Below, in pieces: positions 1 to 17,241 of a DNA stretch of 30,470 bases (positions are counted from its first letter, which is position 1; each line of letters opens with the position of its first letter). The DNA is from a virus, in the IMG/VR virus record IMGVR_UViG_3300021960_000333, positions 1 to 30,470 of that record. The stretch is one strand, 5' to 3'. Below the pieces are notes generated by a model. It saw only the letters and a list, made by a program, of their open reading frames with translations, was not told where the DNA came from and searched no databases. A program made the position numbers and the translations under genes.

Positions 1-47
1 ATTCCACCATCCGCAATGGCAGTAAGTTTAATTCTTGTTAATGGCAT
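1..47 (-). CDS. Start of an unidentified, possibly fibre-like gene (3' end outside window)
   Basis: An ATG at 45-47 opens a frame that stays open to the window edge and reads MPLTRIKLTAIADGG. It overlaps the last 20 bases of the terminase small-subunit gene. The purine-rich stretches AAGGG and AGAG lie upstream of the ATG. The segment 'LTAIADGG' resembles the '..I.DGSIT..KL' modules of phage fibre proteins, such as the 'DGSITASKLS' in the fibre at 11485-12273. In T4 the next gene would be gp17, the large terminase. A competing ATG for such a gene lies at 8-10 in another frame and has no obvious ribosome site. With 15 residues visible the identity stays open. Confidence 0.4.
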   Translation of the reverse strand, partial: MPLTRIKLTAIADGG

Positions 48-459
48 TCTCTTTGTTTCCCTTCAGTAATTTTTGTAGGTCGGCAGTGCTTCCAACATAT
101 AGTGCATTTGTAACACTTCTTGGTCCAGTATTTGATTCTGATTTTACACTTTTCATTTTTTCTTGTAGAACCATCAATTTGTCTGTTACATCAGCAACAT
201 TTTTAATCAGATTTCCTGCAACTTCATATGCTCTTGGTTGGTCGGATTCTCTTGCAATATTTAGTATTCCTTCAATTGCATCCTGTCCACGTTCTACCAA
301 TGTATAAAGATTCTCTCTCTGATATTTATAATCATTATTTATGTCTTCTTCATTTATTTTTGTTTTGGGAACAGATGGTGGAGTGACAACAGCTGTTGCA
401 GTTTCTACAACATCAGCAATTCCAAGAACTTCATCAAGAGTATCCAGTGTTTTATTCAT
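28..459 (-). CDS. gp16: Terminase small subunit, T4 gp16-like
   Basis: This is the DNA-recognition and regulatory subunit of the packaging motor, which works with the large terminase (gp17) at the portal. The central block, with NDYKYQREN, LVERGQDAIEGIL and ESDQPRAYEVAGNLIKN, followed by a helical DVTDKLMVLQEKMK stretch, matches the T4-like gp16 core in pattern and position. The tail is basic and polar. Three in-frame ATGs exist at 537, 492 and 459. I chose 459 (143 residues) because AGGT sits five bases upstream and the start overlaps the gp15 stop by 8 bases, the usual coupled arrangement. The 537 start would overlap gp15 by 86 bases and has no ribosome site. T4 gp16 is about 164 residues, so either length is plausible. 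The position after gp15 agrees with T4 order. Confidence 0.85.
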   Translation of the reverse strand: MNKTLDTLDEVLGIADVVETATAVVTPPSVPKTKINEEDINNDYKYQRENLYTLVERGQDAIEGILNIARESDQPRAYEVAGNLIKNVADVTDKLMVLQEKMKSVKSESNTGPRSVTNALYVGSTADLQKLLKGNKENAINKN

Positions 460-1255
460 CTTGACCTGTTGTTGGGTTGTAGGTTTTTGCATCTTCAAAA
501 TACGATGTTGTTTCGTTAAATCCAAAATCATCATCAAACGATGCGGTTACCGGATCAGGTGTAGCAGAATATCTTTGTTCTCTGGCCACTGCAACATCTG
601 GTGTACTTGTGTATTGGTCCACCTGAACAGATTTAATAACTTTCTGAGAATAAACAGGACCATAAAGAAAGTATTTTGCAGTAAATGAAAGAGTGTAAAT
701 GATTGCTTTTCTTATTGCAAATTCACCTTCATAATTATCTTCATAACCAATACTATTCAATACAATAGGAACATCACGAATAATATCCAATTCAGGTCTT
801 TCATTCAAAGTAATAGCATATTCTGGTTGAAAGAAAGGTAAAATTTGTTCTACAATTTGTAATGCATCATCAGAATTTTTTGCCATCACATATAATTCAA
901 AGTTTAAATTATATGGAACTGGCATGTATGAAGATGCTAATTGTTCAGAAGATTGTGTACTTGCTGTTTTCTTGACTTTAATTGCACGATTTAGTTTTCT
1001 TGTTGAATCATATTCTAATCCTGTGATTTCAAATCCAATTCTAGGAAGAGTGATTGCAACTTGTTTTTGTAGTTTAGGGTCTTCAGTAATACGAACAAGC
1101 CATTTTTGTTTAGGTCCATACGCCAAAGGAACTTTAAGTGTCTGACTAACTTGTCCTGATGAATTTCTTCTTACAAGATAAACATTGTTAAAAATACTAC
1201 CAAAAGCAACAACAATATCTCTTGAGGTTTGATGATAAAAATGCTCACCAATCAT
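452..1255 (-). CDS. gp15: Tail completion and sheath stabiliser protein, T4 gp15-like
   Basis: This protein forms the ring that caps the tail tube and sheath and joins the finished tail to the head. At 267 residues it is close to T4 gp15 (272). Family landmarks are visible. The start is MIGEHFYHQTSRDIVVAFGS. 'QVAITLPRIGFEITGLEYD' lies near residues 66-85, and 'YNLNFELYVMAKNSDDALQIVEQILPFFQP' near 115-145 parallels the T4 segment that ends VEQILPYFQP. A 'RRxxxxSLTF'-type stretch (RKAIIYTLSF) lies near residue 185. The ATG overlaps the gp14 stop as ATGA, with GGAG seven bases upstream, so translation is probably coupled. The tail after residue 200 is acidic and less conserved. Function is assigned by family likeness and by the gp13-14-15-16 order. 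Confidence 0.92.
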   Translation of the reverse strand: MIGEHFYHQTSRDIVVAFGSIFNNVYLVRRNSSGQVSQTLKVPLAYGPKQKWLVRITEDPKLQKQVAITLPRIGFEITGLEYDSTRKLNRAIKVKKTASTQSSEQLASSYMPVPYNLNFELYVMAKNSDDALQIVEQILPFFQPEYAITLNERPELDIIRDVPIVLNSIGYEDNYEGEFAIRKAIIYTLSFTAKYFLYGPVYSQKVIKSVQVDQYTSTPDVAVAREQRYSATPDPVTASFDDDFGFNETTSYFEDAKTYNPTTGQDE

Positions 1256-1998
1256 ATAACATCTCCAAATGGATTAGATTCTGTAAAATCAAGAATGTTA
1301 TCATTTAAGATTTCAAAATCTTGATTTTGTGAAGTTTTTTCTATTTCTGATAATTTATAATCTTCATTAATTATATAGTAAACATCAGAACCTGTGAGAG
1401 AATCTTCTAACACCAAAGAGCCAACTTCATTTTCCAGACTTATTTGATAAGTCTGCATACTCAATGAATAAGTATCTTCTATTAAATCTATTTCTTCTAT
1501 ATTAGTATTAAATTCTTCTGAACTGTATTCAAATGTTCTACATTTTAATTTGAAAATTGGTAAGTTGTGTAACTGATAAAATGGGTCATCATGGTCTACA
1601 AATCCAATTTCAAATATATATTTTGTTATTGGAAAATAAATTAAATCACCTTCGTTTGGTCTTGACTTTTCTACTAAATTTTGGTCTAGCGAAATAAATT
1701 GTTGCCATCTTCTTCTGGAAATTACAAAGGTAATTTCATTGCTAATGTCAAGTCCAAACTTGGTCATTAATTCTTTTTCACCATCAAATCCTTCAACATT
1801 TTCAACATACATTTCTATCATGTAAGCATCATTAAATGAAGAAAGAGGGTCTTCTCCAAAAATATCATCAAGATTTACAATCTTTCTTGGAAGATAAAAA
1901 ACATCCTGGCCGAACACTCTGAGTTGTTCAATAATCAAATCTTCATAAAGATTTTGTTCAGTTCTTGACCCTGTATCAAAATAAACAGAAGTTGGCAT
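1252..1998 (-). CDS. gp14: Neck protein, T4 gp14-like
   Basis: gp14 joins gp13 in the neck, sealing the filled head and providing the tail attachment site. The 248 residues compare with 256 in T4. The most telling region is near residues 30-100: 'VFGQDVFYLPRKIVNLDDIFGEDP' parallels the T4 segment with YYVPRE and IFGED. It is followed by an aromatic and acidic 'ENVEGFDGEKELMTKFGLDIS' stretch and 'EITFVISRRRW'. The carboxyl end is acidic. The start follows gp13 by two bases, at the junction AGGATAAAAATGCC, which carries both the gp13 stop and the ribosome site. The same 14 bases recur at the start of gp13. The gene ends in a 4-base overlap with gp15. Confidence 0.9.
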   Translation of the reverse strand: MPTSVYFDTGSRTEQNLYEDLIIEQLRVFGQDVFYLPRKIVNLDDIFGEDPLSSFNDAYMIEMYVENVEGFDGEKELMTKFGLDISNEITFVISRRRWQQFISLDQNLVEKSRPNEGDLIYFPITKYIFEIGFVDHDDPFYQLHNLPIFKLKCRTFEYSSEEFNTNIEEIDLIEDTYSLSMQTYQISLENEVGSLVLEDSLTGSDVYYIINEDYKLSEIEKTSQNQDFEILNDNILDFTESNPFGDVI

Positions 1999-2000
1999 TT

Positions 2001-2816
2001 TTATCCTATCATGATTTCAGGAGGTAATTCGTAGGCCAACTGAATTTGTTCTTCTAGTTTTAATAACTCTTCCTGTGCTTGTTGATAGATTGTTTCACCA
2101 TTCATGGTCACACCACCTAACATCTGAACACCATTGAACTTAATCAGATTGCTGCCCCATTGCATTTTGATTAGTTGTGTGGCATATCTTTTCAGATACA
2201 TGTCATTCCAAATATCTGGGAATGTAGCTGGGTCAAGTTTACGAATTGCTTCAATCACGATATATTCACCATCTAAAATATCATGCTGCCAATCCATGTC
2301 AATGTACAAACGATTCTGGTGTTGATTGTGTCGGATTGGTTTTTGACCAATTAGAATACTATCCAGCAAGTCAAGATGCTGCATAGTCATATCATAATGA
2401 ATAATGGAAGTTGAAGAGAAATCATACAAGTCATTCAATCTCAGCTGATACCGAACATCAAACATGTTGATGTTTCCTTTGTCACTAAAATTGAATACCT
2501 TGATAACTGAAAGAATGGAATCTGGAACAGGAATGTAATTTTTTTGTTCTTTCCAAGCAGCAGTAGTTGTACCATCTACATCAGTAACTGTTGCAAGTGT
2601 ATTGTCGGATCTTGCTCGGTCAATATCTGCTTGAGAAACTTGATATTTTAGATAAACTCTTTCGGCACCATCATAATGATACTGAGAAAAATACTGAAGA
2701 GCTTGGTCTATTCTGTCTTCAACTTGGTCTGGATCTACATTAATTTCAATAACAGGATGTCCTAATGACCTCAGGCAATATTTTCTAAATTCTTCTCTAG
2801 TTGAAGGTATCGGCAT
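2001..2816 (-). CDS. gp13: Neck protein, T4 gp13-like
   Basis: gp13 binds the portal after packaging and, with gp14, closes the head. The 271-residue product (T4 gp13 is about 309) opens with 'PSTREEFRKYCLRSLGHPVI' and then 'INVDPDQVEDRIDQALQYF', an amino-terminal signature shared by T4-like neck proteins. A 'YHYDGAERVYLKYQ' segment follows near residues 46-60. The centre, 'WKEQKNYIPVPDSILSVIKVF', and the 'YIDMDW' and 'EAIRKLDP' segments also fit the family. The carboxyl end is helical and ends in IMIG. The ribosome site AGGA is embedded in the stop region of the upstream mini-fibre gene, two bases away. The order gp13-gp14-gp15 supports the call. Confidence 0.9.
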   Translation of the reverse strand: MPIPSTREEFRKYCLRSLGHPVIEINVDPDQVEDRIDQALQYFSQYHYDGAERVYLKYQVSQADIDRARSDNTLATVTDVDGTTTAAWKEQKNYIPVPDSILSVIKVFNFSDKGNINMFDVRYQLRLNDLYDFSSTSIIHYDMTMQHLDLLDSILIGQKPIRHNQHQNRLYIDMDWQHDILDGEYIVIEAIRKLDPATFPDIWNDMYLKRYATQLIKMQWGSNLIKFNGVQMLGGVTMNGETIYQQAQEELLKLEEQIQLAYELPPEIMIG

Positions 2817-3062: not shown

Positions 3063-5450
3063 TTAAGCGTATGATCCACCATCAATTGTTGTTACAGCCA
3101 CTGCTCCGTTTGTGACTGTAAAATTATCAGAACTGAAAGAGGCAACACCTTTTGTTGTACTTGTGGCAATAACACCTGCCAAAACGCCAGTTGTATTATT
3201 GTAACTTAGTCCGGTAAATGGTGTCACACTCAATGCTGCTCTTGCAAGTGCATCTGTATAATAAATGTTTGTTGATCCTTGTGAAATATCATCACTATCT
3301 AGTGTAATAGAACCACCAAGTAATACCTCTGTTCCATTCACGGTGATAGAATCATTCACAAGTTTATCATTTGAAATTGAGCCAGCAAGCATTGCATTGG
3401 TAACACCCAATGCTTTAATTTGTAATGCATCTGATTGAATTTCAAGACCACCAGTATCCAATGCATTAACTTTTACGAATAATTCATTTCCTGTTTTGCC
3501 GATTGCTGCACCATCAATAATTTGACCAGCACCAGAAAATTGTGTATAGATAATATTGTCTGTACCTACAGTAGAAACAATGTTAGTTTGAACAAATCCA
3601 GCATCACCATTTTCACTACCACTTTGAATGAAGAAGAATTGTCCAGCAGTCAAATCAGCAGCACTTGTTGAATCAGTTGCTCTTGTAAGAAGAGACCCTG
3701 AACCACCTACTACATAAACACCATTTTCTGTTTGTGTTGTCTGGTCTTTAACAAGAATTCTATCTCCATCAGTAACAGTAACTCCATCAATAGTTGATAT
3801 TGCCGAACTTGGAGTAATTGTACCAGCCGCATTATCATAAGTACCAGCAATGTTTGCAACAGTAGCAGCAACTACGGATGCTTTTACTTGCAATCCTTGT
3901 GCAACAGAATCAACATATTGCTTGTTTGCAGCATCTAACAATGCCGTTGGGTCAGAAACATTTGTGATTTTGTGAGAGTTTACATCAACTGTTCCTGCAC
4001 CATTTGGATTCAATATCAAATTTTCATTTGTTCCACTTGTTGTAAGAACATTTGTACTGATGGTAACATTACCACTTGTAAGAGAAGTCAAACCAGAAAC
4101 TGATGTTACAGTTGTTCCCAATGCCAAAGCTGTTCCACCAAGAGTGACAGAATCATTTGCAAGTTTTGCATTTGTTACATTACCATCCAAAATCTTTGCT
4201 GTAGTAACTGCATCATTTGCAATATTTGTTGTTGCAACACCACTAGTTGCAATACTTACCACACCTTCAGTTGTAACAGAAAAATCACCAGAATCAAATG
4301 ATGCCACACCTTTGGTTGATGTTGAAGCAGTAACTCCAGAAATTGTCAATGTTCCTGCTGTGACTTCTGTAGTAATACCAGCACCAGTGCCTCCAACAAC
4401 ACTCAATGCAGAACCCAGACTTACATTTGTTGTTCCTGTTGTTCCACTGAAAGTTGTTGAAGAATTGGTCAGCTTTGCATTTTCAATTGAACCAGCAAGT
4501 TGTGCATTAGAAATTCCTGCTGCTTTGACAGTAACTTCACCACCTGTTGAAACTGCAAAATCAGCTGTTGCAAATGATGCCACACCTTTGGTTGATGTTG
4601 AAGCAGTAACTCCAGAAATGGTCAATGACCCTGCATTGTCATCATAAACAGATGCAAGTCCAGTATCAGCTTCTATAACAATCAAACCATCAACAGAATT
4701 GGCAACTATGTCTTCAATGTGTTCTTCTAAATTTGTCAATTTAAGAGAAACAGCACCACCAGCAGTGACAGTAAAATCATCAGAAGAAAATGATGCCACA
4801 CCAACAGTTGAAGCAGTTGCAATATCTCCAGAAACTGTCACAGTATTTGTTGCAGGATCAACCACAGTAGAAATACCTGAACTACCTGCATATGTCAAGG
4901 TGTCAGTCAAAAGGCTGATAGTATCTGTTCCTGAATCTCCTGCAATTCCAAGATTTGTTGCAACATCAGCAAATGTAGTTGTTCCAGTACCATTTGTTAC
5001 AATAACTTGTCCGGCAGAACCATCAACTAATGGTAGGTCATAAGAATTTTTAATTTTTACAGCTGCAGAAGGATTTAGATTCAGATTCGTGGTTGCTGTT
5101 AAATTCAATGCACCTGAAGCAGTTGTAACGGTGTTACCATCAATGTCAATATTATCAACTTTTATATTGTCAATCTTTTTGTTACCATCTACAAGAATAG
5201 CAGAATCAGCTGTCAACACACCTTTTGTGTGTTCCATCATGTCAGTATAATATTGACCACCAACTTTAATAGGAATGTCAGTAGAATTTGTTGGATTACC
5301 TATGTATAATCTTTTACCGTTTTGACCTGCTCCAGTAGACTGTGAAGATGTATCATAAACATAAGCAAGTTCACCCAAATTAAGATTACCATTATTTGCA
5401 GTAGGCAAATTTGGAGTTGTAGTCCGTTTTATTTGAATAAGAGTTGACAT
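3063..5450 (-). CDS. Large repeat-built tail fibre protein (795 aa)
   Basis: A beta-rich, Thr/Ser/Val/Ala/Gly-rich fibre. Residues 1-55 carry the amino-terminal attachment-type module (QIKRTTTPNLP, LNLGELAYVYD, KRLYIGNP). The shaft then repeats a unit built on 'ATSTKGVASFSSDDFTVTxGGxVS', seen at least four times including at the very end, alternating with 'GVTNAMLAGSISNDKLVNDSI'-type segments. A distinct central domain near residues 510-610 has 'DAANKQYVDSVAQGLQVKAS' followed by 'DGVTVTDGDRILVKDQTTQTENGVYVV', a module common in phage fibres and baseplate proteins. The last residues are TTIDGGSYA, similar to the GGTY end of the collagen-like neighbour. AAAAGGAAAAG precedes the ATG. It is probably a trimeric fibre or neck/tail appendage. 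Whether it recognises the host is not visible. Confidence 0.82.
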   Translation of the reverse strand: MSTLIQIKRTTTPNLPTANNGNLNLGELAYVYDTSSQSTGAGQNGKRLYIGNPTNSTDIPIKVGGQYYTDMMEHTKGVLTADSAILVDGNKKIDNIKVDNIDIDGNTVTTASGALNLTATTNLNLNPSAAVKIKNSYDLPLVDGSAGQVIVTNGTGTTTFADVATNLGIAGDSGTDTISLLTDTLTYAGSSGISTVVDPATNTVTVSGDIATASTVGVASFSSDDFTVTAGGAVSLKLTNLEEHIEDIVANSVDGLIVIEADTGLASVYDDNAGSLTISGVTASTSTKGVASFATADFAVSTGGEVTVKAAGISNAQLAGSIENAKLTNSSTTFSGTTGTTNVSLGSALSVVGGTGAGITTEVTAGTLTISGVTASTSTKGVASFDSGDFSVTTEGVVSIATSGVATTNIANDAVTTAKILDGNVTNAKLANDSVTLGGTALALGTTVTSVSGLTSLTSGNVTISTNVLTTSGTNENLILNPNGAGTVDVNSHKITNVSDPTALLDAANKQYVDSVAQGLQVKASVVAATVANIAGTYDNAAGTITPSSAISTIDGVTVTDGDRILVKDQTTQTENGVYVVGGSGSLLTRATDSTSAADLTAGQFFFIQSGSENGDAGFVQTNIVSTVGTDNIIYTQFSGAGQIIDGAAIGKTGNELFVKVNALDTGGLEIQSDALQIKALGVTNAMLAGSISNDKLVNDSITVNGTEVLLGGSITLDSDDISQGSTNIYYTDALARAALSVTPFTGLSYNNTTGVLAGVIATSTTKGVASFSSDNFTVTNGAVAVTTIDGGSYA
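4295..4343. repeat. Perfect 49-base direct repeat, copy 1
   Basis: Identical base for base to 4571-4619. The offset is 276 bases, exactly 92 codons, so both copies encode the same fibre-repeat residues (around GVTASTSTKGVASF) in frame. The flanks diverge at once, which suggests recent internal duplication or gene conversion in the fibre gene. Confidence 0.9.
4571..4619. repeat. Perfect 49-base direct repeat, copy 2
   Basis: Second copy of the repeat at 4295-4343, in the same reading frame of the 795-residue fibre gene. Confidence 0.9.
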
Positions 5451-5478
5451 TTCTTTTCCTTTTTGTTATTTGTAAACC

Positions 5479-6636
5479 TTAATAAGTTCCACCATTTAAT
5501 CTGAGTGTACCTGATAAAGTGTCTATATTTGTTGTTGCTATCCATTTTGTTGATAATTCTGAATATTGCAACAATGCACCATCCGCCAAACCTGATATAT
5601 CTATATCAGAAGTATTGTTTATTTGACCAGAAATATTGAAGTTTCCAGTGTCACCTTTTAAACCTTGTGGACCTGCTGGCCCAATATCCCCCTGTGGACC
5701 TTGAGCGCCTTGAGGTCCTGCATCACCTTGAATTCCCTGAATACCTTCTGGACCAATTGTTCCTTGCGGACCGGCAGGTCCCTGAATACCTTGTGGACCT
5801 TGTTCTCCCTGTGCACCAGCTGGACCAATTTCACCTTGTGCACCAGCTGGACCCTGAATTCCTTGAAGTCCCTGTGGCCCTGCTGGACCAGTTTCACCCT
5901 GTGGTCCAGTTGCACCAGCTGTGCCCTGCGGTCCAGTTGCACCTTGTATTCCTTGTGGTCCTGCCTCACCCTGAGGACCTTGTGAACCTTGTGGACCAGT
6001 TTCACCCTGTGAACCTTGAATTACTCCAACATCTACCCATTGATTAGTACTCCAGACATAACCATGTGTATCTGCTGTAACTATATACAAATCACCATCG
6101 GTTGCACCAACGGGTAAATCATTTATAGTTGCAACAGCACCTTTGAGTAGAACACTTGTACCATCTGCACCATCTGCACCCTGCGGACCTTGTGGTCCTT
6201 GAAGTCCCTGAATACCCTGTTGGCCTTGTTCGCCTTGTGAACCAGTTTCTCCCTGAATACCCTGTGGTCCCGTTGCACCCTGAGGACCAGTTGCACCAGC
6301 AGGACCAGAATCACCTTGCAGACCCTGTGGTCCTTGAAGTCCCTGGGCACCCTGTTGTCCTGGTTCACCTTGTGGACCTTGTGGGCCAGCATTTCCTTGT
6401 GGACCCTGAATACCTTGTTGTCCTGGTGCACCTTGAACACCCTGAGCACCTTGTGCTCCTCTGTCTCCCTTTGGTCCTTGAAGTCCCTGTGGTCCAGTTT
6501 CACCCTGTAAACCCTGTGGTCCAGTTGCTCCTGCTAATCCTTGAGTTCCTGCACTTCCTGATGGACCTTGTAGACCAGGAACTGTTACTCTTATAACTTC
6601 TACTTTATTAACACGGGGATTTGTTGTTATTGCCAT
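5479..6636 (-). CDS. Collagen-like fibre protein (385 aa)
   Basis: Two uninterrupted Gly-X-Y tracts are visible. Residues 21-161 hold 47 triplets and residues 208-333 hold 42. Between them, residues 162-207 form a globular island with the motif '[20 protein letters not shown]' and '[12 protein letters not shown]', common in phage collagen-like proteins. The amino end (1-20) and the 52-residue carboxyl end are not collagenous; the latter ends TLRLNGGTY. Glutamine dominates the Y position (GPQ, GLQ, GIQ) and lysine is rare. Such tracts form trimeric triple helices without hydroxyproline, so this is probably a stiff shaft of a tail or capsid fibre. The gene starts three bases after the upstream stop. 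Long open frames on the opposite strand here are a by-product of the GGN-rich repeat. Confidence 0.88.
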
Positions 6637-6639
6637 TTA

Positions 6640-6981
6640 TTAAGATGTCCTAGAAACGCTAGGTGATACAGTTGCTATTCCTTCTACTACTCTTGTAGAT
6701 AATCCATTTGGATTTGAAATTAAAACATCATAAACATATCTTCCATATTCCAATGCAGCGGTTTGTTCCGCAGTCAAAGAAATGGTTATATTTCCAGTGG
6801 TTCTATCATCATCAAATTCGGCTGTGAATGAAACAGCATTAACAGATTCATATGTTTTGCGGATTTGTGCAATGACTGTATAATTTGTTAAATCGGTTGC
6901 ATCTCCATTGGAATCACCAACAAATAAAATAGTTATGAAATCTGAACCTTGGTCAATAAAAATATTGGAAAGGGAAGCCAT
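6640..6981 (-). CDS. Small beta-sandwich structural protein (113 aa)
   Basis: The protein opens 'MASLSNIFIDQGSDFITILF' and continues 'DSNGDATDLTNYTVIAQIRK', then 'GNITISLTAEQTAALEYGRY' and 'VYDVLIS'. This pattern is shared by small proteins found next to fibre genes in marine T4-like phages. It resembles the Ig-like amino-terminal fold of some baseplate upper proteins (BppU type), though that comparison is mine. It is the first gene of its unit. Two overlapping late-promoter octamers lie at 7003-7016 and AAGGT is a well-placed ribosome site. The collagen-like gene follows three bases after its stop, so the two products may form one appendage. No enzymatic motif is seen. Confidence 0.7.
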   Translation of the reverse strand: MASLSNIFIDQGSDFITILFVGDSNGDATDLTNYTVIAQIRKTYESVNAVSFTAEFDDDRTTGNITISLTAEQTAALEYGRYVYDVLISNPNGLSTRVVEGIATVSPSVSRTS

Positions 6982-7002
6982 GAAGTTACCTTGTTTTCTT
7001 AA

Positions 7003-7016
7003 TATTTATATTTATA
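7003..7016 (-). promoter_or_regulatory. T4-type late promoter, two overlapping octamers
   Basis: The minus strand reads TATAAATATAAATA, which is two perfect TATAAATA late-promoter octamers sharing two bases (7009-7016 and 7003-7010). It lies 22 bases upstream of the ATG at 6981, in the only sizeable intergenic gap of this region, just after the hairpin that closes the previous unit. Confidence 0.75.
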
Positions 7017-7041
7017 AGGATTGTGTTCTGAGAAAGGAAGG

Positions 7042-7075
7042 AATTTGCTTCTGAAAATAATTCCAGAAGCAAATT
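7042..7075 (-). terminator. Perfect 12-bp inverted repeat after the SPRY adhesin gene
   Basis: The arms AATTTGCTTCTG (7042-7053) and CAGAAGCAAATT (7064-7075) pair perfectly around a 10-base loop, 10 bases beyond the stop of the 7086-8984 gene. On the minus strand the stem is followed by a pyrimidine tract (CCTTCCTTTC), not a pure T run; on the plus strand it is followed by TTATTTG. It is probably a terminator for the upstream unit, or an mRNA 3'-end stabiliser. Confidence 0.6.
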
Positions 7076-7085
7076 TTATTTGTGA

Positions 7086-8984
7086 TTAGCGTGCGTTTGC
7101 GTAGTTGAATGGTTGCTCTGCGAAGGCCATAAAGATAATCCCGTCACCATTTGCATTATGTTCAAGTTGAATTGAACGGAGTTTAAAACCATTACTTAAA
7201 AAATCTATGTATATGTCCGTTGCGGCAGTAGAAGCGTCACCACGATAGCCTTCATTGATACTTTTATTAGCGTACAAAACTTTATTCATGACGTTACTGG
7301 AATCCCTAGCATTATCAAACATAGCCCAAGATGCATAACTTGATGTGTAATTATAAACCTTACAAATCACAAACGCAGGACGGAATCCACAGTACACAAA
7401 CGGCCCATCCGTTGACCCGTTTCCGGTGTAACTGCCGAACTTGCTGTAGCCTTCAACCGAATGCCAGCAGTAGGCTATGTAATCTACTCCAGAACAATTT
7501 AGCCACGAATCAATTCCAATAGTAATATATGAAGGACCTACGCCTTTAAATACATTCGCTGAAGTCGCTGATGAGGCAGTATCATCTAATCTACTATATT
7601 CTAACCCGGTAGATACATGATTTACAAACCAACCAGATCCACTAGACATGTCAAATGAACCACCTGTACTTGTTGTGCCAGACCCCGATAACCCTTTAAT
7701 GATGACAAATTCAGGCGTTTTTGATAACCCGTGAGGCAGTGTAGAACTACTTGTAGGCGAAACTCCTTCATACTTCACAATACTAAACCCATTCTGCCGA
7801 TTTGCAGACACCTTGATTGGGGTGATGCTTGCGCCAGCAGCAGTTGCTAATGCAGCACAATCTTGGATTGAAGTATTGGCAGTGCCATCTTCATTGATGA
7901 TCTTGGCAGAGCCATCATTAGCACTTGCATAATCTTGATCTGGAGCGCCAGCCGCTTTCCAGCACCAAGCGACATAATTAATATTATTTTCATTAACCCC
8001 ACTTTGTTGTGAGGAACAGTTGAATCCATTATTAGTTATGTAAATATTATCATTATAATCCGCTTCTGGATTTGTTGTATCTGTATGTAAACGGTAATAA
8101 GAGTTTGCGTCTGAGTGGGGACGGAGCGAATCAATTAAAACATGACTATAGTTTATATTGCTTGCTTTAACCCAAATCATGTCAGGTGTAAATCCTAAAT
8201 CCTCAGAAACTCCGCCTGATTCATTCCCAGCATACGTCACCGCTTTAAAATAATCCTGCGGCACATCATCATCCACAGTTGGTGTCATTTCTGGCAGGTT
8301 CGCAGAACAAAGTGCTAGTGCGTCAGTTGGTGGTGGATAATAAAATAACCCTGCTGTTCCTGCAGCAATACCAGAAGGAGGAAAAGGCCCAGTTACGCCA
8401 TTGACAGTTGCTGGTGTGTTTTTATTTCCGCCAAAGGTGGGGTCTTGACCTGCATTAAAAGTTGTAGCTTGGTCATTATTATAATGCCCAATTCGGGGTG
8501 CTATAGTCCCACTTAATCCCGAAAATGCTTCTATGATGCTAGATAAATTTGAATAACTACTTGAATTACCGTTTACCCATGAACCGTTGAGTGAAAAGTA
8601 AATCTTTCCACTATCCAAATCAAAACAACATCCTAAAATATCGCCAGAAGAATGACTATTCCCATAATCTGTAAACGTGCCATTTCGTGATTTCTTACCA
8701 GTAGCATAATACCCATAAGCATTAGAGTTATTGCCAGCATCAAAAAGTTGAGCATGTGTGATTAAATCCAACTCAGCTACAGAAATATGTGATCCATTCG
8801 TAGATAAAACATGACACTCAAAATACCAAATGCCTGACGTAACAGCTATTGTGCTAATTGCAAAACTACTACTACCAGTAATTGATAAGGCTCCGTTTGA
8901 AATGGTTGCAGATGAATGTGCATAATTAACATTGCAAACTGCGAAATTATTCGTTGGACTGTCTGGTCTTTGTTTTATTGCCAT
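7086..8984 (-). CDS. SPRY-domain adhesin / tail fibre protein (632 aa)
   Basis: Residues about 35-180 look like a SPRY (B30.2-like) beta-sandwich: 'GIWYFECHVL' near 51-60, 'YGYYATGKKSR' near 90-100 and the diagnostic 'DILGCCFDLDSGKIYFSLNG' at 115-134. A Pro/Gly linker (FPPSG...FYYPPPTDALALCSANLP) leads to three related modules of the 'GFTPDMIWVK' type, near residues 264, 415 and 530, each followed by W- and D-containing strands. I associate these with adhesins of marine phages (possibly the family named DUF7483). The end is 'IIFMAFAEQPFNYANAR', a common ending for this class. It is likely a receptor-binding protein. It is the last gene of its unit and is followed by a hairpin. Base usage looks richer in G and C than in the neighbours (GCG, CGG, CGT codons), which hints at recent acquisition. 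Confidence 0.8.
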   Translation of the reverse strand: MAIKQRPDSPTNNFAVCNVNYAHSSATISNGALSITGSSSFAISTIAVTSGIWYFECHVLSTNGSHISVAELDLITHAQLFDAGNNSNAYGYYATGKKSRNGTFTDYGNSHSSGDILGCCFDLDSGKIYFSLNGSWVNGNSSSYSNLSSIIEAFSGLSGTIAPRIGHYNNDQATTFNAGQDPTFGGNKNTPATVNGVTGPFPPSGIAAGTAGLFYYPPPTDALALCSANLPEMTPTVDDDVPQDYFKAVTYAGNESGGVSEDLGFTPDMIWVKASNINYSHVLIDSLRPHSDANSYYRLHTDTTNPEADYNDNIYITNNGFNCSSQQSGVNENNINYVAWCWKAAGAPDQDYASANDGSAKIINEDGTANTSIQDCAALATAAGASITPIKVSANRQNGFSIVKYEGVSPTSSSTLPHGLSKTPEFVIIKGLSGSGTTSTGGSFDMSSGSGWFVNHVSTGLEYSRLDDTASSATSANVFKGVGPSYITIGIDSWLNCSGVDYIAYCWHSVEGYSKFGSYTGNGSTDGPFVYCGFRPAFVICKVYNYTSSYASWAMFDNARDSSNVMNKVLYANKSINEGYRGDASTAATDIYIDFLSNGFKLRSIQLEHNANGDGIIFMAFAEQPFNYANAR

Positions 8985-9006
8985 TTTTTTCTCTTTTTCC
9001 TATTTG

Positions 9007-11475
9007 TTATGCGCTTGGTGTCCAGTGATTGTTTCTACCGGACGAATCTTTTCCTAGACCATAGGTAGTTGAATTGTATACAAATGAAGGATCATCAAAC
9101 TTCAGATGAAAACCATTGTTACCATAATTATCTAAAGAAGTTCCTGTTGTGCCATAATCTTTTGGAGTCCAATATACATCAGTACCTTGAGTGGAGTATC
9201 GTCCAAAAGAAGAAGGTGTTAGTGCTTGCCCGTCAATGAAATAAATGTCTGCCGCATATCCTTGAAAATCATTTTGATAATTATCATTAGTATACGCAAA
9301 TAATGCGTGAGGATTTGCTGTATTTATTGTAGTATCCCCGCTGATTGTATTATAAGTTCCATAATCAGATTGTAATATTCTTGTTCCGTTTATATAAATT
9401 TTTACACGGTCTGTAGCTGTTGCATTATTAGTGTCGGTTGCTGCAACAATATGCATCCATGATGATGTATCTCTAAATACTTGGTTTGTAATAAACCAAA
9501 TCCAAGAACTTCCTGTAGGATTATATCCTAAAGTAAGAGTATCATCTGCATTAAATCTCATTAAGTTTCTAGGAGCAGATATTCCATCTGTTCTTGTTGA
9601 ACTGCTTAATCCTATGTTTTGCTGCACTCCATTCAATGTCTTTTTAATCCAAAAACTTAGAGTAAACGTGGTTCTGTTACTTGAACTAAAATCATTTTTA
9701 CTCAAATAACTACTCCCATCAAACATCGCAGAAGTTGCTATTTCTGTGGTATAAACAACGCCTGTTTGTAATACGTCCACTGTAATCGTGTAATCCTGTG
9801 AACTTGTATTTGTTGCATTATCAGTTGCAGTCACCGTAGCAGTAATGGTTCCACCAGCCGAAAAGAAATCAGAAGCAAGAGTGGGAGTGACAGAAATTAG
9901 TCCACTATTGTCAATTGAAAATCCAGAAACATCTGTTGTTCCATCACTTGGAGTAAATGTGGCTGAATAAGAAACAATAGATCCATCATCTGTTGCTACA
10001 GGAACCTGAGCAGACCATGAAGTGTCACGGTCATCAGAAGCAATTGTAATTGTTCCAGGAGTACCCATAGTAGGAGCAACTCCTGTAGTCAATAATGTTG
10101 TTCCAGTAGTTTGAGAAAGTTTGTAGGTATATCCACTTGTGAGAACAACTTCAACATCAATATTTGTTTGTGCAACTGTAAATGCTTGAGGAGTATCAAC
10201 CGTGATTGTATTATCATCTACAACGGTAACATTTGTTCCTGCATAAGAATTACCACCTGTGATAAAATTGACAGCTGAAAGAGTATCAGTTCCATTAAAT
10301 CCAAAACCTTTTACTGTAATAGTTGTTCCAGAACCACCATCATAATTAGTTGTTCCAACAGTTCCAATCCAGGCATCATTAACTCTGGTACTTCTTAATT
10401 CAATTGAATAAGTTCTTGGTTCTGATTTTGTTACTCCTGTTTCACCCTCCGCAGTTGCTGTGACAACAAAAGTATTGACAGTTGAGCCAGAATTTCCAAA
10501 AGATGCACTGAGAGTTCCTTCTACTGCACCTGATGTTGCATTAATACTTAATCCAGCAGGAAGGTTTCCATCATCAGCATAAGTGATTGTGTCTCCTGGA
10601 TCTGTTGATGTTGCTGGTACAGATGAAATAGTAAGAGAACTTAAATCAGAATCATCAGAATAAATGAATCCCAATCTTTCTGTTGTTACACTAAATGCAG
10701 GAGTTGGTAACCATTCAATTATATCTTCAACTGTGGTACTTACAAGAGGAATAGTAGGATTATCTAAAGAAGTTGGAAGTGTCACATAAACATCAAATGG
10801 ATCATTTGCAGCATCATCATCTAATCCAGCAGGAATATTAAAAGTGATTTCTGTTCTTGCTGCATTGAATTCAGAACCATTAACATTTGTTGTATAGTCA
10901 ATAGATAAACCACCAGATGCTTTGACAAATGAAATAATAGAACCAGGTCGGAGATTTCTGCCAGTCAATTTAACTGGGTCATTATCTGCCTGAAAATATG
11001 CAAGGTTGTCAGTTGTATTTACAAGAGATGTGACCACTGGATGTGATTCAACAAGAATCTTTCCTGTTCGGTTTGTTCCTTCTAGACTGTTGACTGCTTC
11101 GGTTGCAACCCAGCCATATGTGCTGGAATAAGTAAGTTGTGCACCACCTCTTTCAACATCAATATCCAATTCGTAAACATCACCATTAATATTCTCACCA
11201 TTTGGATTAATTGTGATTCTATTACTGTCAGCAGATCCTGCTGCATCAACAATTGAAACCACACTACCTGCTGTTGGAGATGCAGGAAGTGTAACACGAA
11301 TTGCACCACCAGAAGTATTTAAATAATAACCTTTATTATTTTCTGCGGTAAAATCACTTGTTTGTACTGCTGTTGTCCAGTCTGTGCCACCTGCACCTGG
11401 AGCAAGTTTATCAGCAGATATTTCTCCTGTTGTTCCAATAAGTTCTGCGACAATTTTTGAAAACGTAGTTGCCAT
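9007..11475 (-). CDS. Multidomain Ig/TIG/LamG-type adhesin (822 aa)
   Basis: The front 150 residues are a fibre-like beta domain (GGAIRVTLPASPTAGSVVSI, NRITINPNGENINGD). Next come bacterial-Ig-like modules. One, near residues 255-360, has 'LPAGLSINATSGAVEGTLSA', the putative-Ig (He_PIG) pattern. A TIG/IPT-like module near 370-450 has 'ITVKGFGFNGTD'. A further 'LISVTPTLASDFFSAGGTIT' module has the cadherin/Ig style. Residues about 578-800 form a concanavalin/LamG-like domain ('AMFDGSSYLSK', 'FTLSFWIKK', 'WMHIVAATDT', 'DRVKIYINGTRI', 'YFIDGQALTPSSFG'), and the end is GKDSSGRNNHWTPSA. These domains bind sugars or proteins in other adhesins, so a host-recognition role is likely. AAGGA precedes the ATG. 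It sits between a small three-repeat fibre and the SPRY adhesin. Confidence 0.8.
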   Translation of the reverse strand: MATTFSKIVAELIGTTGEISADKLAPGAGGTDWTTAVQTSDFTAENNKGYYLNTSGGAIRVTLPASPTAGSVVSIVDAAGSADSNRITINPNGENINGDVYELDIDVERGGAQLTYSSTYGWVATEAVNSLEGTNRTGKILVESHPVVTSLVNTTDNLAYFQADNDPVKLTGRNLRPGSIISFVKASGGLSIDYTTNVNGSEFNAARTEITFNIPAGLDDDAANDPFDVYVTLPTSLDNPTIPLVSTTVEDIIEWLPTPAFSVTTERLGFIYSDDSDLSSLTISSVPATSTDPGDTITYADDGNLPAGLSINATSGAVEGTLSASFGNSGSTVNTFVVTATAEGETGVTKSEPRTYSIELRSTRVNDAWIGTVGTTNYDGGSGTTITVKGFGFNGTDTLSAVNFITGGNSYAGTNVTVVDDNTITVDTPQAFTVAQTNIDVEVVLTSGYTYKLSQTTGTTLLTTGVAPTMGTPGTITIASDDRDTSWSAQVPVATDDGSIVSYSATFTPSDGTTDVSGFSIDNSGLISVTPTLASDFFSAGGTITATVTATDNATNTSSQDYTITVDVLQTGVVYTTEIATSAMFDGSSYLSKNDFSSSNRTTFTLSFWIKKTLNGVQQNIGLSSSTRTDGISAPRNLMRFNADDTLTLGYNPTGSSWIWFITNQVFRDTSSWMHIVAATDTNNATATDRVKIYINGTRILQSDYGTYNTISGDTTINTANPHALFAYTNDNYQNDFQGYAADIYFIDGQALTPSSFGRYSTQGTDVYWTPKDYGTTGTSLDNYGNNGFHLKFDDPSFVYNSTTYGLGKDSSGRNNHWTPSA

Positions 11476-12316: not shown

Positions 12317-12611
12317 GGTCTTTTTGTAGTTGATTTGATGTATATTCAAAATTTTCAGCAACTACCCAAGTCAAACCATTCTTAGAATATATTCCTGTGT
12401 ATTCTGTTTTTGGAAATGTGAATATTGTATCCACGATTTCTGGGTTCAATGCAAGAACTGTTCCCTTGTGTTCATCTGATGCATTGGTGAAATATTTTAG
12501 CCTTCCTTTTGGATAAGAAGACAAATCTAAAGGTTCAACTCTAGTAGAAACGGTGGTTGTGGAGGATGAGATTCCACCAGAGAGAACCTTGAGATTTGGT
12601 TTGTCACTCAC
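12312..12611 (-). CDS. Unknown small protein (99 aa), GTG start
   Basis: No family is recognised. The product is soluble-looking with no membrane segment. It has a Ser/Thr-rich amino end (SGGISSSTTTVSTRVEPLDL) and a compact middle with 'PKGRLKYFTNASDEHKGTVL' and 'YTGIYSKNGLTWVVAENFEY', which suggests a small beta domain with aromatic positions. It starts at GTG (12609-12611) inside the end of the upstream gene, an 8-base overlap, so its translation is probably coupled to that 135-residue protein. Being last in the adhesin-cassette unit, it may be an accessory virion or assembly protein. The frame is well supported by the packed arrangement; the function is not. Confidence 0.62.
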   Translation of the reverse strand: MSDKPNLKVLSGGISSSTTTVSTRVEPLDLSSYPKGRLKYFTNASDEHKGTVLALNPEIVDTIFTFPKTEYTGIYSKNGLTWVVAENFEYTSNQLQKDQ

Positions 12612-13011
12612 TCGGTATTAAATCCCAAGATGTTGTTTCTTCATTCCAGATATATGGTTCTCCATCGGTCGGATATGGTACTGGAGAATCCCAGAGACAT
12701 GTTTCTTCATTCAGTGTCCAGCTTGGGTATGGTTGTGGTGGAATGAAGGCATCTCTTGATTCATCATAGGTATATCCAAGACCAGCATAATTTTTTCTGA
12801 ATGCTTTGGATTGGTCAGCGGATGGTTCATTTGTTTCTGGGCTATAATGAATTCCACCTTTGGTGTTGTAACTTGTTCGTTTACAAGTTTGTCCTCTAAA
12901 TTGACCATACCACACTTCTGGCGTTTGTTCTTCTATTAATTTGGTTTCATCTATTCCAGTAATTACTTCTGTAACCACAAAGTTTGCATCTAAAAATGCG
13001 TAATGTGCCAT
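12604..13011 (-). CDS. Adhesin-partner protein B, 'KRTSYNTKGG' family (135 aa)
   Basis: The protein has a variable front (MAHYAFLDANFVVTEVITGI) and a strongly conserved body from about residue 45: 'CKRTSYNTKGGIHYSPET', 'QSKAFRKNYAGLGYTYDESR', 'DAFIPPQPYPSWTLNEETCL' and 'PYPTDGEPYIWNEETTSWDL'. Proteins of this pattern are frequent beside fibre genes of marine T4-like phages. I know no proven role. The repeated W..NEET / W..DEET motifs suggest small beta hairpins, and the location suggests a fibre-assembly chaperone or virion component. It is a paralogue of the 14043-14435 product, with about 250 bases of near-identical, gap-free DNA. GGAG lies 8 bases before the ATG. Confidence 0.78.
   Translation of the reverse strand: MAHYAFLDANFVVTEVITGIDETKLIEEQTPEVWYGQFRGQTCKRTSYNTKGGIHYSPETNEPSADQSKAFRKNYAGLGYTYDESRDAFIPPQPYPSWTLNEETCLWDSPVPYPTDGEPYIWNEETTSWDLIPSE
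12620..12870. repeat. 251-base direct repeat, copy B (duplicated partner gene)
   Basis: Aligns without gaps to 14056-14306, with most bases identical by eye (roughly 85 percent, not computed). It covers the conserved body of the 'KRTSYNTKGG' genes; the amino-terminal codons of the two genes do not align. Confidence 0.85.
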
Positions 13012-13054
13012 TTATTTAACTCCAAATTTAAAAAACATATAATGTATCATCTGA

Positions 13055-14032
13055 TTAACTCCAGCTCACGGTGCCAGTACCTTGTGTAATGGTGGTGACC
13101 TTATCGCTTCCTACGGTGGTAGTTGATATGGTTAATCCAGTTTGGCTGATTGTTAAACTTGCTGGGTATCTAAGAATGACTACACCATCACCACCATTGC
13201 CTCCATCTCCCCCAACAATTCCAGGTCCACCGCCACCACCGCCAGTATTAACTGCTCCATCCCAGCCGTTGGCTCCTGTCCCATTACCTCCGTCTCCTCC
13301 ACCACCTTTGTCTGCTGTTATAGAAGTTCCCCCACCAAGACCACTACCATTACCATTTCCTCCGCCGCCACCACCGCCAGCGTACTTAATGCCTGTTATT
13401 GTGCTTGCTTTAGAAACTCCACCATTACCACCAGAAGGAGTGCTACTAGCCGTTTGACCTGCTCCCCCAGCACCACCTCCACCAGAACTTGCCTGACGGT
13501 AAGTCCCACTAGCAATCGCACTTCCACCATCATACCCCTGTCTAGCCGAATCTATGTAAGATGACCCTACATATACACCCACACCTCCAATAGAACCCGT
13601 AGCTGATTTTGATCCACCACCTGACCCACCATTCAGCCCAGCATCACTGTTAATTGTTGCGTCTCCAGCACCACCTCCACCCCCATATGCTGTGCTAGTA
13701 GAAAAAATAGAGTCTTGGCCTTTAGTCCCAACAGCAGAGGCTGTATCCCCAGCGCCACCGCTACCTACAGTTACTGTATATAGTTCGTTTATTGTTAGAG
13801 TTGTGTTTAATATCTCTAAAAACCCTCCAGCACCACCCCCACCTCCTAAATTACCTCCACCACCACCTCCACCAGCTACTACAAGATAATCAGTATTAAA
13901 TTCCACTAATGGCCATATAGCATCTTTTCTTGCGCCATAAACTTCATTCAAACTCCACGTTCCGGATGCTGCATCTAGTGTTGGAACATTTTCAACTCCA
14001 ATTATTCCACCGTTTTGTCTCTTTCTTACCAT
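13055..14032 (-). CDS. Glycine-rich adhesin B (325 aa)
   Basis: A short basic front (MVRKRQNGGIIGVENVPTLD) precedes 'ASGTWSLNEVYGARKDAIWP', then 'TDYLVVAGGGGGGG' near residues 48-61. From there to about residue 290 the chain is a ladder of poly-glycine runs (GGGGGAG, GGSGGGS, GGGGGGNG, GGGGGGPG) separated by short variable loops. It closes with 'DGVVILRYPASLTI' and a 35-residue tail. This is the architecture of the glycine-rich-domain adhesins of phages, in which poly-Gly helices pack as a sandwich and loops contact the receptor (the gp38 adhesin of phage S16 is the structural precedent). A tip adhesin role is therefore inferred. It parallels the product of 14455-15465 and is followed by its own partner gene. 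AAGGATAAAAGA precedes the ATG. Confidence 0.82.
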   Translation of the reverse strand: MVRKRQNGGIIGVENVPTLDAASGTWSLNEVYGARKDAIWPLVEFNTDYLVVAGGGGGGGNLGGGGGAGGFLEILNTTLTINELYTVTVGSGGAGDTASAVGTKGQDSIFSTSTAYGGGGGAGDATINSDAGLNGGSGGGSKSATGSIGGVGVYVGSSYIDSARQGYDGGSAIASGTYRQASSGGGGAGGAGQTASSTPSGGNGGVSKASTITGIKYAGGGGGGGNGNGSGLGGGTSITADKGGGGDGGNGTGANGWDGAVNTGGGGGGPGIVGGDGGNGGDGVVILRYPASLTISQTGLTISTTTVGSDKVTTITQGTGTVSWS

Positions 14033-14042
14033 TCTTTTATCC

Positions 14043-14435
14043 TTACTGTGTTACTAAATCCCATGTTTGAGTTTCTTCATTCCAGATATATCTTTCTCCA
14101 TCAGTTGGATGTGGTACTGGAGAATTCCAGCGACAAGTTTCTTCATTCAGTGTCCAACTTGAATATGGTTGTGGTGGAATAAAGGCATCTCTTGATTCAT
14201 CATAAGTGTAGCCGATACCAGCATAATTTTTTCTGAATGCTTTGGATTGGTCTACAGATGGTTCTCTTGTTTCTGGATCATAATGTATTCCACCTTTGGT
14301 GTTGTAGGAAGTTCTCTTGTGAACTTGTCCTGTTTCCTTTTCCCATTCTACTTCACCATTCCAGTCATCTTCATGACCAGCAGTCTTCATATCAATTACA
14401 ATATTGTTTTCATCTAATACAGCGTAATATGCCAT
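14043..14435 (-). CDS. Adhesin-partner protein A, 'KRTSYNTKGG' family (130 aa)
   Basis: This is the second member of the partner family: 'HKRTSYNTKGGIHYDPET', 'QSKAFRKNYAGIGYTYDESR', 'DAFIPPQPYSSWTLNEETCR' and 'HPTDGERYIWNEETQTWDL'. The front (MAYYAVLDENNIVIDMKTAG) differs from that of copy B after a shared 'YAxLDxNxVV' start. It lies 10 bases upstream of adhesin B and 19 bases downstream of adhesin A, so each adhesin is followed by a partner. Its role is unknown; a dedicated chaperone or a structural partner of the preceding adhesin is plausible. No membrane segment or catalytic motif is visible. Confidence 0.78.
   Translation of the reverse strand: MAYYAVLDENNIVIDMKTAGHEDDWNGEVEWEKETGQVHKRTSYNTKGGIHYDPETREPSVDQSKAFRKNYAGIGYTYDESRDAFIPPQPYSSWTLNEETCRWNSPVPHPTDGERYIWNEETQTWDLVTQ
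14056..14306. repeat. 251-base direct repeat, copy A
   Basis: Partner of the repeat at 12620-12870, same length and register. The two copies are 1436 bases apart, the length of one adhesin-plus-partner cassette. Confidence 0.85.
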
Positions 14436-14454
14436 TTTTCAGTATCCTTTATTA

Positions 14455-15465
14455 TCAACCAAATGTGATTATTCCAGAACCAGCAGTGAATTTATATAGT
14501 CTATAATTTGATATTGTTGATGTATCTTCAACAATAGTGCCTGAACTTCCTCCATTTACCACATGACTACTATGTATTGAATTAATAGGAGGATAAGTGT
14601 CTGGATAGGAAATAATCACAATACCACTACCACCAGAACCTGATTGATCTATTCCACCTTGGTCTCCTGCCCCATCACCACCACCACCACTACCAGTATT
14701 AGCATCTCCGCTTCCTGCTGCACCTCCAGTGGAATAACTAAAATCTGCACCATCATTTGTATGTATATTACTAGAACCTCCAAGTCCTCCAGGTTGTCTG
14801 TATCCACCTCCACCTCCACCAGTAGCATATATAAGAGAAGTTCCTGTTATTGAATTAGTTCTACCATCACCGCCAACACCACCAGCTGTGTCAGCTGCAG
14901 CTGTAGAAGCACCAGCACCGCCAGCACCGCCACCGCCACCGCCAGACCAACCAGTACTACCACCATTACTTCCTTGAGTATTAACTGATGCTGGTGGTGC
15001 ACCTCTTTGATGTCCTGAACCACCAGAAGACCCAAATCCAGCACCTCCTGCAGCATCAGTTCCATCACAACCACCTCCACCACCTCCAAATGCAGTTAGT
15101 GAAGAAAGAATACTATCGCCACCCTTTCCACCCGTTGCTTGTTGAGAACTTGGACGTTCTTCTCCTCCCGATCCTACAGTTAAAGTATAATTGGTATTTG
15201 TAACCATAGTTAATGATGTAGAATTACTTTCACCACCCGCAGATGCTCTATAAGACAAATAACCTCCTGCACCTCCACCACCTCCAGATTGAGTTCCACC
15301 ACCTCCACCACCTCCAATCAAGAGATAATCAACGGGTATATCAATAAAAGATCCTGGCCATCTGCCACCTTTTCTTTCAATCGCAACATCATCAAGATTC
15401 CAGATACCAGAAGCACTTGAAAGTGATGCTACTTTTCTTTTTCCTAAAACTCCACCTCTTGGCAT
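14455..15465 (-). CDS. Glycine-rich adhesin A (336 aa)
   Basis: The layout is the same as in adhesin B. The basic front is MPRGGVLGKRKVASLSSASG, followed by 'IWNLDDVAIERKGGRWP', then 'VDYLLIGGGGGGG' near residues 46-58. Many Gly runs follow (GGGGGAGGY, GGGGGCDG, GGGGGGAGG, GGGGGGYRQPGG), divided by loops that differ completely from adhesin B. 'GSGIVIISYPDTYP' near residue 285 closes the ladder. A roughly 50-residue tail (GTIVEDTSTISNYRLYKFTA) ends in GIITFG. It is probably a receptor-binding tip protein of the glycine-rich adhesin type. It is first of the two tandem cassettes, with AGAGGATAACTAAA before the ATG. Opposite-strand frames in this gene are proline-rich or low-complexity shadows. 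Confidence 0.82.
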   Translation of the reverse strand: MPRGGVLGKRKVASLSSASGIWNLDDVAIERKGGRWPGSFIDIPVDYLLIGGGGGGGTQSGGGGGAGGYLSYRASAGGESNSTSLTMVTNTNYTLTVGSGGEERPSSQQATGGKGGDSILSSLTAFGGGGGGCDGTDAAGGAGFGSSGGSGHQRGAPPASVNTQGSNGGSTGWSGGGGGGAGGAGASTAAADTAGGVGGDGRTNSITGTSLIYATGGGGGGYRQPGGLGGSSNIHTNDGADFSYSTGGAAGSGDANTGSGGGGDGAGDQGGIDQSGSGGSGIVIISYPDTYPPINSIHSSHVVNGGSSGTIVEDTSTISNYRLYKFTAGSGIITFG

Positions 15466-17233: not shown

Positions 17234-17241
17234 TATTTATA
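17234..17241 (-). promoter_or_regulatory. T4-type late promoter, TATAAATA
   Basis: A perfect TATAAATA on the minus strand, 25 bases upstream of the ATG at 17209, in a 38-base gap that also holds the ribosome site AAAGGAAAG. It would drive the unit from 17209 down to about 12312. Confidence 0.72.

Follow-up and report, generated by a model that had tools for sequence, protein, structure and literature searches.

Swapping of fiber tips is known in T4, and T4-type phages reportedly possess mobile promoter/stem-loop cassettes, which are said to have been described by Arbiol et al. in 2010 at the edge of a shuffled module and to carry early promoters. In pelagimyophages and cyanomyophages, the host recognition cluster (HRC) is the hypervariable region between VrlC and gp14, according to the consulted sections of PMC7029224. 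For the Melnitz isolates, the consulted part of PMC9004378 describes a tail region of altered genes (bp 99465 to 105981) and touches on fiber-tip swapping in T4; the two coordinates are gene borders in MZ577095.1, an entry that bears the name Melnitz-1 in GenBank and Melnitz-4 in that part of the paper. The same source gives the Melnitz variants identical host ranges on the OM43 panel tested; thus, no host change has been shown for them, which argues against a simple host-range role of the region, at least on that panel. SPRY lectin domains have been associated with phage tail fibers, e.g., in protein QDH50631.1 of Synechococcus phage S-B43 (consulted sections of PMC7824862). Both the type of region and the presence of SPRY domains in phage fiber proteins are therefore already known, from the sections of PMC7029224 and PMC7824862, respectively. 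Within the literature that we searched, no paper contained DUF7483 as a word, and none combined pelagiphage, tail fiber, and SPRY.

The window, i.e., the whole stretch of DNA analyzed here, is a virus record of 30,470 bases and represents a fragment. Its gene content fits a T4-like marine phage (head-tail adaptor, head closure, sheath stabilizer, baseplate wedge, small terminase), and the closest gp14 proteins in the phage collection are those of Methylophilales phages Melnitz (73%) and Pelagibacter phage HTVC008M (67.5%). The window contains a fiber-rich region that ends at gp14 and is non-syntenic between relatives, in agreement with this part of the definition of the HRC in the consulted sections of PMC7029224, and the gene under study, hereafter the tip gene, lies within the run of fiber genes before gp14. 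Those sections treat the island as a whole, whereas the subject here is a single slot, its promoter edge, and a codon anomaly. Elsewhere in the window, the gene at 18661–24744 matches phrog_358 (function unknown), and two glycine-rich genes within 12604–15465 are each followed by a related small phrog_7759 gene, an arrangement that resembles a duplicated tip-plus-helper pair. Megablast with window bases 1–25000 against phages returned a single 58-bp match, Rfam and ARAGORN found nothing, and six proteins had zero NCBIfam matches at E values up to 0.01.

The tip gene occupies positions 7086–8984 on the minus strand and is an exact ORF of 632 amino acids; its SPRY + DUF7483 product is read as the distal part of a tail fiber. 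Both Pfam matches exceed their curated cut-offs: PF00622 (SPRY) with E = 2.4e-10 and 41 bits (cut-off 26.3), and PF24299 (DUF7483) with E = 2.8e-83 and 280.2 bits (cut-off 27), the latter matching best over residues 384–625 (7110–7835, minus strand). PHROG matches comprise phrog_19943 ("virion structural protein") and phrog_24898 ("tail fiber protein"). The AlphaFold2 model (mean pLDDT 71.6, pTM 0.68) predicts a SPRY beta-sandwich fold for residues from about 9 to 236 (8277–8960, minus strand); it matches the SPRY domain of DDX1 with Z 20.5 and rmsd 2.7 over 178 aligned residues and that of Ash2L with Z 19.7–19.9, spanning model residues 13/14–228/229. The Foldseek and VIA-align rows cover mostly model residues 9–236 and speak for the SPRY part, not for the DUF7483 part alone, and these lists exclude no family that is absent from them. 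The preliminary description had recognized a SPRY-type adhesin gene at this place, which is borne out by the exact ORF, the PF00622 match, the SPRY fold in the model, and the adhesin-type fiber character of the gene. The S-B43 protein QDH50631.1 is homologous to the tip protein (32% over 99%). In S-B43 and in Roseobacter phage CRP-406, the match lies within a longer single ORF, whereas the window has it in a gene apart from the Ig/LamG-type part, and the tips of both phages belong to other tree groups than that of the window. Among genome_contigs, 45 tip relatives are 28–37% identical in their best segment, with the exception of L275 (45%, residues 263–629). We rejected a host origin of the tip, because no whole-length genome_contigs relative, whether in a prophage or not, is closer than the best viral ones.

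The preceding gene (9007–11475, minus strand) encodes an 822-aa Ig/LamG-type protein, likely the proximal part of the same fiber. It has a He_PIG match in Pfam; LamG is a label that we presume to apply, and no LamG Pfam match was found in this protein. In four relatives (L172, L175, L192, and L207), the Ig/LamG-type and SPRY-DUF7483 parts form a single ORF of 1055–1122 aa, and phrog_27411 and phrog_19943 each match portions of both genes in the window; thus, the pair is read as the inner and outer parts of one fiber. These fusions and the phrog_24898 match place the tip gene in one fiber polypeptide or fiber gene run. In the geometry that we infer, the 822-aa protein would be inner and the tip protein outer, and the tip gene probably encodes the outer end of a tail fiber in a T4-like ocean phage. 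When viral contigs were searched with the 822-aa protein, 15 pattern matches were returned, 0 of which were confirmed as relatives.

The gene that follows the tip gene, o113 (6640–6981, minus strand; phrog_1084 and phrog_3304, "L-shaped tail fiber protein assembly"), is the conserved first gene of the next unit. The preliminary description had taken the end of the preceding unit for a landing place where an insertion would disturb no downstream gene and had advised a search for relatives with the same flanks that lack the gene. Among 98 o113 loci, 13 are cut off at a contig edge upstream, leaving 85 testable loci. All 85 have a same-strand ORF of at least 80 aa that ends no more than 500 nt from o113 (an ORF not being proof of a gene), and none combines the same flanks with the lack of a gene. 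Slot contents are thus replaced rather than inserted into a free site, and the notion of a landing place gives way to that of a swap slot. The 66 slot proteins (63 of the 85 after removal of duplicates, that of the window, and two Melnitz rows) include DUF7483 in 11, S74 in 6, C1q in 5, glycine-rich sequence in 5, and F5/8 type C in 1.

Homology between related loci breaks at a narrow place. When 172 pairs of o113 loci with at least 85% DNA identity were compared (pairs that are not mutually independent), 126 lost homology 25–100 nt before o113, and 35 ran to the edge of the stretch; the break came at −300 to −100 in 10 pairs and farther out in 1. When longer stretches were compared, 95 of the 103 pairs that broke did so at −100 to −25, and two pairs continued to −1745; in a simple grouping by like downstream DNA, the loci formed 18 groups, which showed 33 changes upstream. 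At the control genes, no breaks were found in 286 pairs for gp15 and 426 pairs for gp13; these genes lie between conserved genes and therefore show only that the pile-up is not an alignment artifact. At gp14, itself the border of a variable region, 79 of 355 pairs break within 100 nt. The locus sets consisted of the best 80 of 83, 572, and 222 relatives. In the window itself, DNA identity to L095 is 40% at about 7198–7139 and 85–100% from 7138 through most of o113. The Melnitz phages have a variable tail region at the same position before the o113 homologue, although blastp finds no match between their slot proteins and the SPRY-DUF7483 protein. Between Melnitz-1 and Melnitz-3, identity is 99.8% to the left and 99.5% to the right of a variable stretch of 6.2 kb that includes like islands and has the slot gene as its end; the high identity on the right sets in within the final 5 nt of this gene and extends through o113. 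Members of this phage group have a swap slot before o113, bounded by a fixed promoter edge, and the late promoter downstream of the tip gene is supported as an exchange boundary.

This promoter consists of two overlapping T4-type late-promoter TATAAATA boxes on the minus strand, at 7003–7010 and 7009–7016, both exact, and the preliminary description was right in seeing a double late promoter here. The second of them is part of the extended promoter ACACAATCCTTATAAATA (7009–7026, minus strand), the downstream edge of the exchange slot. In the window as a whole, TATAAATA occurs mildly above chance (6 versus 2.9 expected, with 6 reached in 6 of 100 shuffles); it lies within 150 nt of o113 in all 68 distinct leaders, and the preceding AATCCT is conserved in at least 80% of them. 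IMG/VR contains 77 exact matches to the 18-base ACACAATCCTTATAAATA. In 58 of them o113 comes next; 12 and 6 precede two other gene starts, and one precedes none. As a marker of o113 alone it was rejected, since 19 of the 77 matches have no o113 after them, and we do not assume a T4-like identity for all 77 stretches. The slot gene of Melnitz-1 has its own exact TATAAATA box just upstream (L231, 12341); none is listed there for Melnitz-3 (L232). The next exact same-strand box upstream of the tip gene is found only at 17234–17241 (minus strand), where the unit closed by the tip gene may start; thus, the earlier view that the tip gene is the last in its unit is consistent with the sequence.

Between the stop codon of the tip gene and the promoter lies a perfect 12-bp hairpin, as described previously (7042–7075, minus strand; arms 7042–7053 and 7064–7075), terminator-like or possibly an mRNA 3' end. 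The stretch folds at −18.4 kcal/mol (z −6.7), and 0 of 200 shuffles fold as well. At the equivalent place, L095 and L096 have 15-bp hairpins (z −6.8 and −7.3, respectively), and the stem of L096 differs from that of the window on both sides, as judged by eye from the three sequences. Of 68 leaders, 15 have a perfect hairpin of at least 8 bp before the box, compared with 1.4 in base shuffles, and only three (window, L095, and L097) have one of at least 12 bp, so that the hairpin as part of every edge was rejected. What the edges have in common is thus the promoter; the hairpin is a frequent addition, which is strongest in the window's own lineage. Terminator-like sites within 5400–9200 show no excess over shuffles (3 versus 3.0). 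Like the cassettes reportedly described by Arbiol et al., the window has a stem-loop and a promoter at the edge; here, however, the boxes are those of late promoters, and the hairpin occurs in a minority of leaders.

The tip gene was also said to have unlike base usage, and this holds: its GC content is 0.403, compared to 0.370 in the preceding and 0.342 in the following gene. Overall GC is higher elsewhere in the window (0.485 in a collagen gene, 0.484 and 0.444 in the two glycine-rich genes), so this measure alone does not make the tip gene special. With amino acids fixed, its GC3s is 0.273 versus 0.139 expected (z +9.7, the top of 26 window genes), the runners-up being gly325 (z +5.1) and gp14 (z +4.3), and its whole codon usage is the most deviant among 12 genes tested (z +30). 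The two glycine-rich genes are unlike each other in GC3, with gly336 at z −2.4. Of the three codons named in the preliminary description, GCG (7/60 versus 28/653 in other genes, p 0.02) and CGT (5/12 versus 27/274, p 0.006) are raised, whereas CGG is not enriched (1/12 versus 5/274, p 0.23). Two others, GGC (16/61 versus 61/952) and ACG (8/46 versus 25/979), are raised more than these, and AGA is depleted (2/12 versus 210/274). The DUF7483 part (residues 236–632) has a stronger GC3s bias, at z +9.8, than the SPRY part, at z +3.2; the bias of the gene persists (z +7.9) after removal of residues 500–545, over which GC3s is 0.53. Codon usage of the 822-aa partner gene is normal (z −0.3); therefore, the step in GC3 is located at about the 22-nt gap that separates the two genes.

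The anomaly is not a family trait. When 89 DUF7483 tips, including five relatives of the window's tip, were compared with their own contigs, 9 were above z 2 and 33 below −2, and we rejected raised GC3 as a property of the family. Of the nine raised tips, five (L096, L001, L084, L090, and L093; z +2.2 to +9.2) are related to that of the window in the tip tree, and the other four (L024, L041, L042, and L073) fall outside the group, so that the anomaly is not unique to it. The tips of L041 (7–1071, z +10.7) and L042 (10001–11563, z +9.1) are as raised in GC3 as that of the window; L042 also has a second tip, which is not raised (z −0.7). At the same site as in the window, tips are raised in L096 (z +8.6) and, in a partial sequence, L095 (z +9.2). 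After these two, the highest z is +3.9 among 48 slot genes and +5.4 among 334 control genes, and the GC3 deviation is similar in both sets (median 0.029 versus 0.023, p 0.27); the 48 are those of the 63 slot proteins' genes that were long enough and had enough other codons. Slot genes as base-composition outliers in general were rejected on this ground. Neither place nor family alone thus raises GC3. A donor with matching base composition was sought and none was found: all five tip-group relatives exceed their own background. High GC3 appears to belong to the tip group and not to the window alone, and it would most simply be upheld by a circulating tip pool of other composition; the data fit either tips re-imported from such a pool or GC3 kept up locally.

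In a tree built from the best 75 of 111 distinct tips, the window and L096 are joined at 100/99; L001, L084, and L090 join them at 100/98 and L093 at 89/76. The grouping of the window, L096, and L001 is given at 94/74 for this tree and has 98/93 in a tree of 30 of these tips, which also served for the AU test; there, L084 is placed beside L148/L133, and L093 lies outside the group. Resolution of the deep branches is poor. When a tip clade lacking L001 was put to the AU test, the result was borderline (p 0.0455), the group having been named after the tree was seen. Alignments A1 and A2 omit L013, L018, L020, and L021, which have internal stops or no open frame, and also L042 and L052, without such a reason; A2 further omits L229 and L230. 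On the one hand, L096 has the same site and gene order as the window, and their sisterhood is what would be expected under vertical descent. On the other hand, L001 comes from a 144-kb record whose sole gp14 match is 29% identical; being of another lineage by gp14 and yet inside the tip group, it points to cross-lineage exchange. Either the L001 tip came across lineages, or the L001 and window tips both came from a third.

Segments of the tip have unlike nearest relatives. The conserved "hub" (residues 505–545; 7350–7472, minus strand) has 78–90% amino acid identity to L001, L084, L090, and L093 and 55% to L096, whereas residues 425–504 are 74% identical to L096; for L001, L084, and L093 alone, amino acid identity of the hub is 80–90%, and hub DNA is 83–89% identical to these three. 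In L084 and L090, the related tip is located shortly before gp14. A second Ig-like + SPRY-like pair follows the small terminase in L082, L087, L093, and L096, and at least the Ig-like part does so in L083, L090, L092, L094, and L097; the window stops 27 bases past its small terminase gene, short of that position. Related tips thus occupy several places. The neck block (window 28–2816) is mosaic at single-gene scale: gp14 is 96–98% identical to 11 contigs, L081–L091, but in nine of these gp13 is 65–67% and gp15 80–82% identical to the window. In L088, all three are 97–99% identical to the window, and the small terminase is 98–99% identical in L082, L083, and L087. Because gp14 and gp13 disagree in this way, congruence of the tip tree with gp13/gp14, the yardstick proposed earlier, fails by itself.

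The reading that we favor, and hold to be quite probable, is that the tip gene is a distal, receptor-facing fiber gene, the last of a late unit, in a swap slot with a promoter edge whose contents are replaced by exchange. The observations behind it are the domains, the SPRY fold of the model, the hairpin, the promoter boxes, the variable slot contents, the pile-up of breakpoints, and the unlike nearest relatives of different tip segments. The tip product would form the distal, receptor-facing part of the fiber, and the preceding Ig/LamG-type product the inner part; the tip may bind the receptor. The tip gene would close a late transcription unit ending in the hairpin, where transcription may terminate, and the next unit would begin at the strongly conserved late promoter before o113. 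Slot contents would be replaced by exchange between co-infecting phages, presumably through homologous recombination, in which the conserved promoter-o113 stretch would serve as homology arm on the downstream side and conserved fiber parts (heads, tip hub) as arms on the upstream side.

The edge itself could be an illusion, if the o113 leader were merely more conserved than a fast fiber gene. Fiber tips do evolve fast, the leader contains the promoter, and the slot proteins of Melnitz-1 and Melnitz-3 are still 52% alike over 271 residues. However, their outer parts are unlike, although the 99.5% identity of the two genomes on the o113 side reaches into the final 5 nt of the slot gene, and the slot is filled by unlike domain families; we consider an absence of any exchange edge very unlikely. 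The origin of the codon anomaly is a separate matter. A recent single import by the window's phage from a GC-richer phage, with codon usage not yet adapted, would account for the largest codon outlier of 26 genes, for the GC3 step over 22 nt to the Ig/LamG-type gene, and for the fact that the tip group also includes L001, from another lineage. A recently acquired gene would be unlike both its neighbors and its same-site orthologues, and the tip gene is unlike the former but like the tips of L096 and L095; the anomaly also recurs in L001, L084, L090, and L093, and gene order is the same in L096. Moreover, of 113 four-fold sites compared between the tips of the window and L096, only 43 agree (0.38 versus 0.28 by chance), which is near saturation, whereas the comparison with the partial tip of L093 shows no saturation (13 of 25 sites alike, versus 0.26 expected). 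With an anomaly common to L095 and L096 and such near-saturated sites, codon usage does not date a recent import: had the window's phage alone imported the gene recently, the anomaly in its relatives would be unexplained, and a single old import should have adapted by then. A recent single import is thus quite unlikely.

Another explanation, to which we give more weight, is fast vertical evolution of the tip, with GC3 held up by codon or RNA selection or by GC-biased repair in a recombination hotspot rather than by import. It would explain why the anomaly is common to the tips of the window's group despite near-saturated synonymous sites relative to L096, and it agrees with the lack of a donor in our search and with the sister relationship of the window and L096 at the same site. 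Against it stand the 89 tips, far more of which are lowered than raised, the slot genes, which are generally not raised, and the L001 tip, which comes from another lineage yet lies inside the group. We regard this explanation as somewhat unlikely, and a swap slot with repeatedly exchanged contents remains the preferred reading. From the earlier proposal of an acquired adhesin at a regulatory edge, the fiber gene, the anomaly, and the promoter as an exchange boundary are retained, whereas an acquired gene in a free spot is not.

A more far-reaching proposal, which we offer as speculation and consider unlikely as it stands, is that ACACAATCCTTATAAATA, preceded by the hairpin in the window's lineage, serves tips across T4-like marine phages as a docking edge that is fixed and reusable. 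Repeated re-import from other lineages, or GC-biased conversion at the hotspot, would let the tips circulating through it in the window's lineage keep a foreign composition past synonymous saturation. At the level of the observations, odd codon usage of a phage adhesin need not signify a fresh import, as diverged relatives at the same site have the same anomaly. The general claim that fiber regions are hypervariable also becomes testable, because exchange here stops at one late-promoter edge and can be counted.
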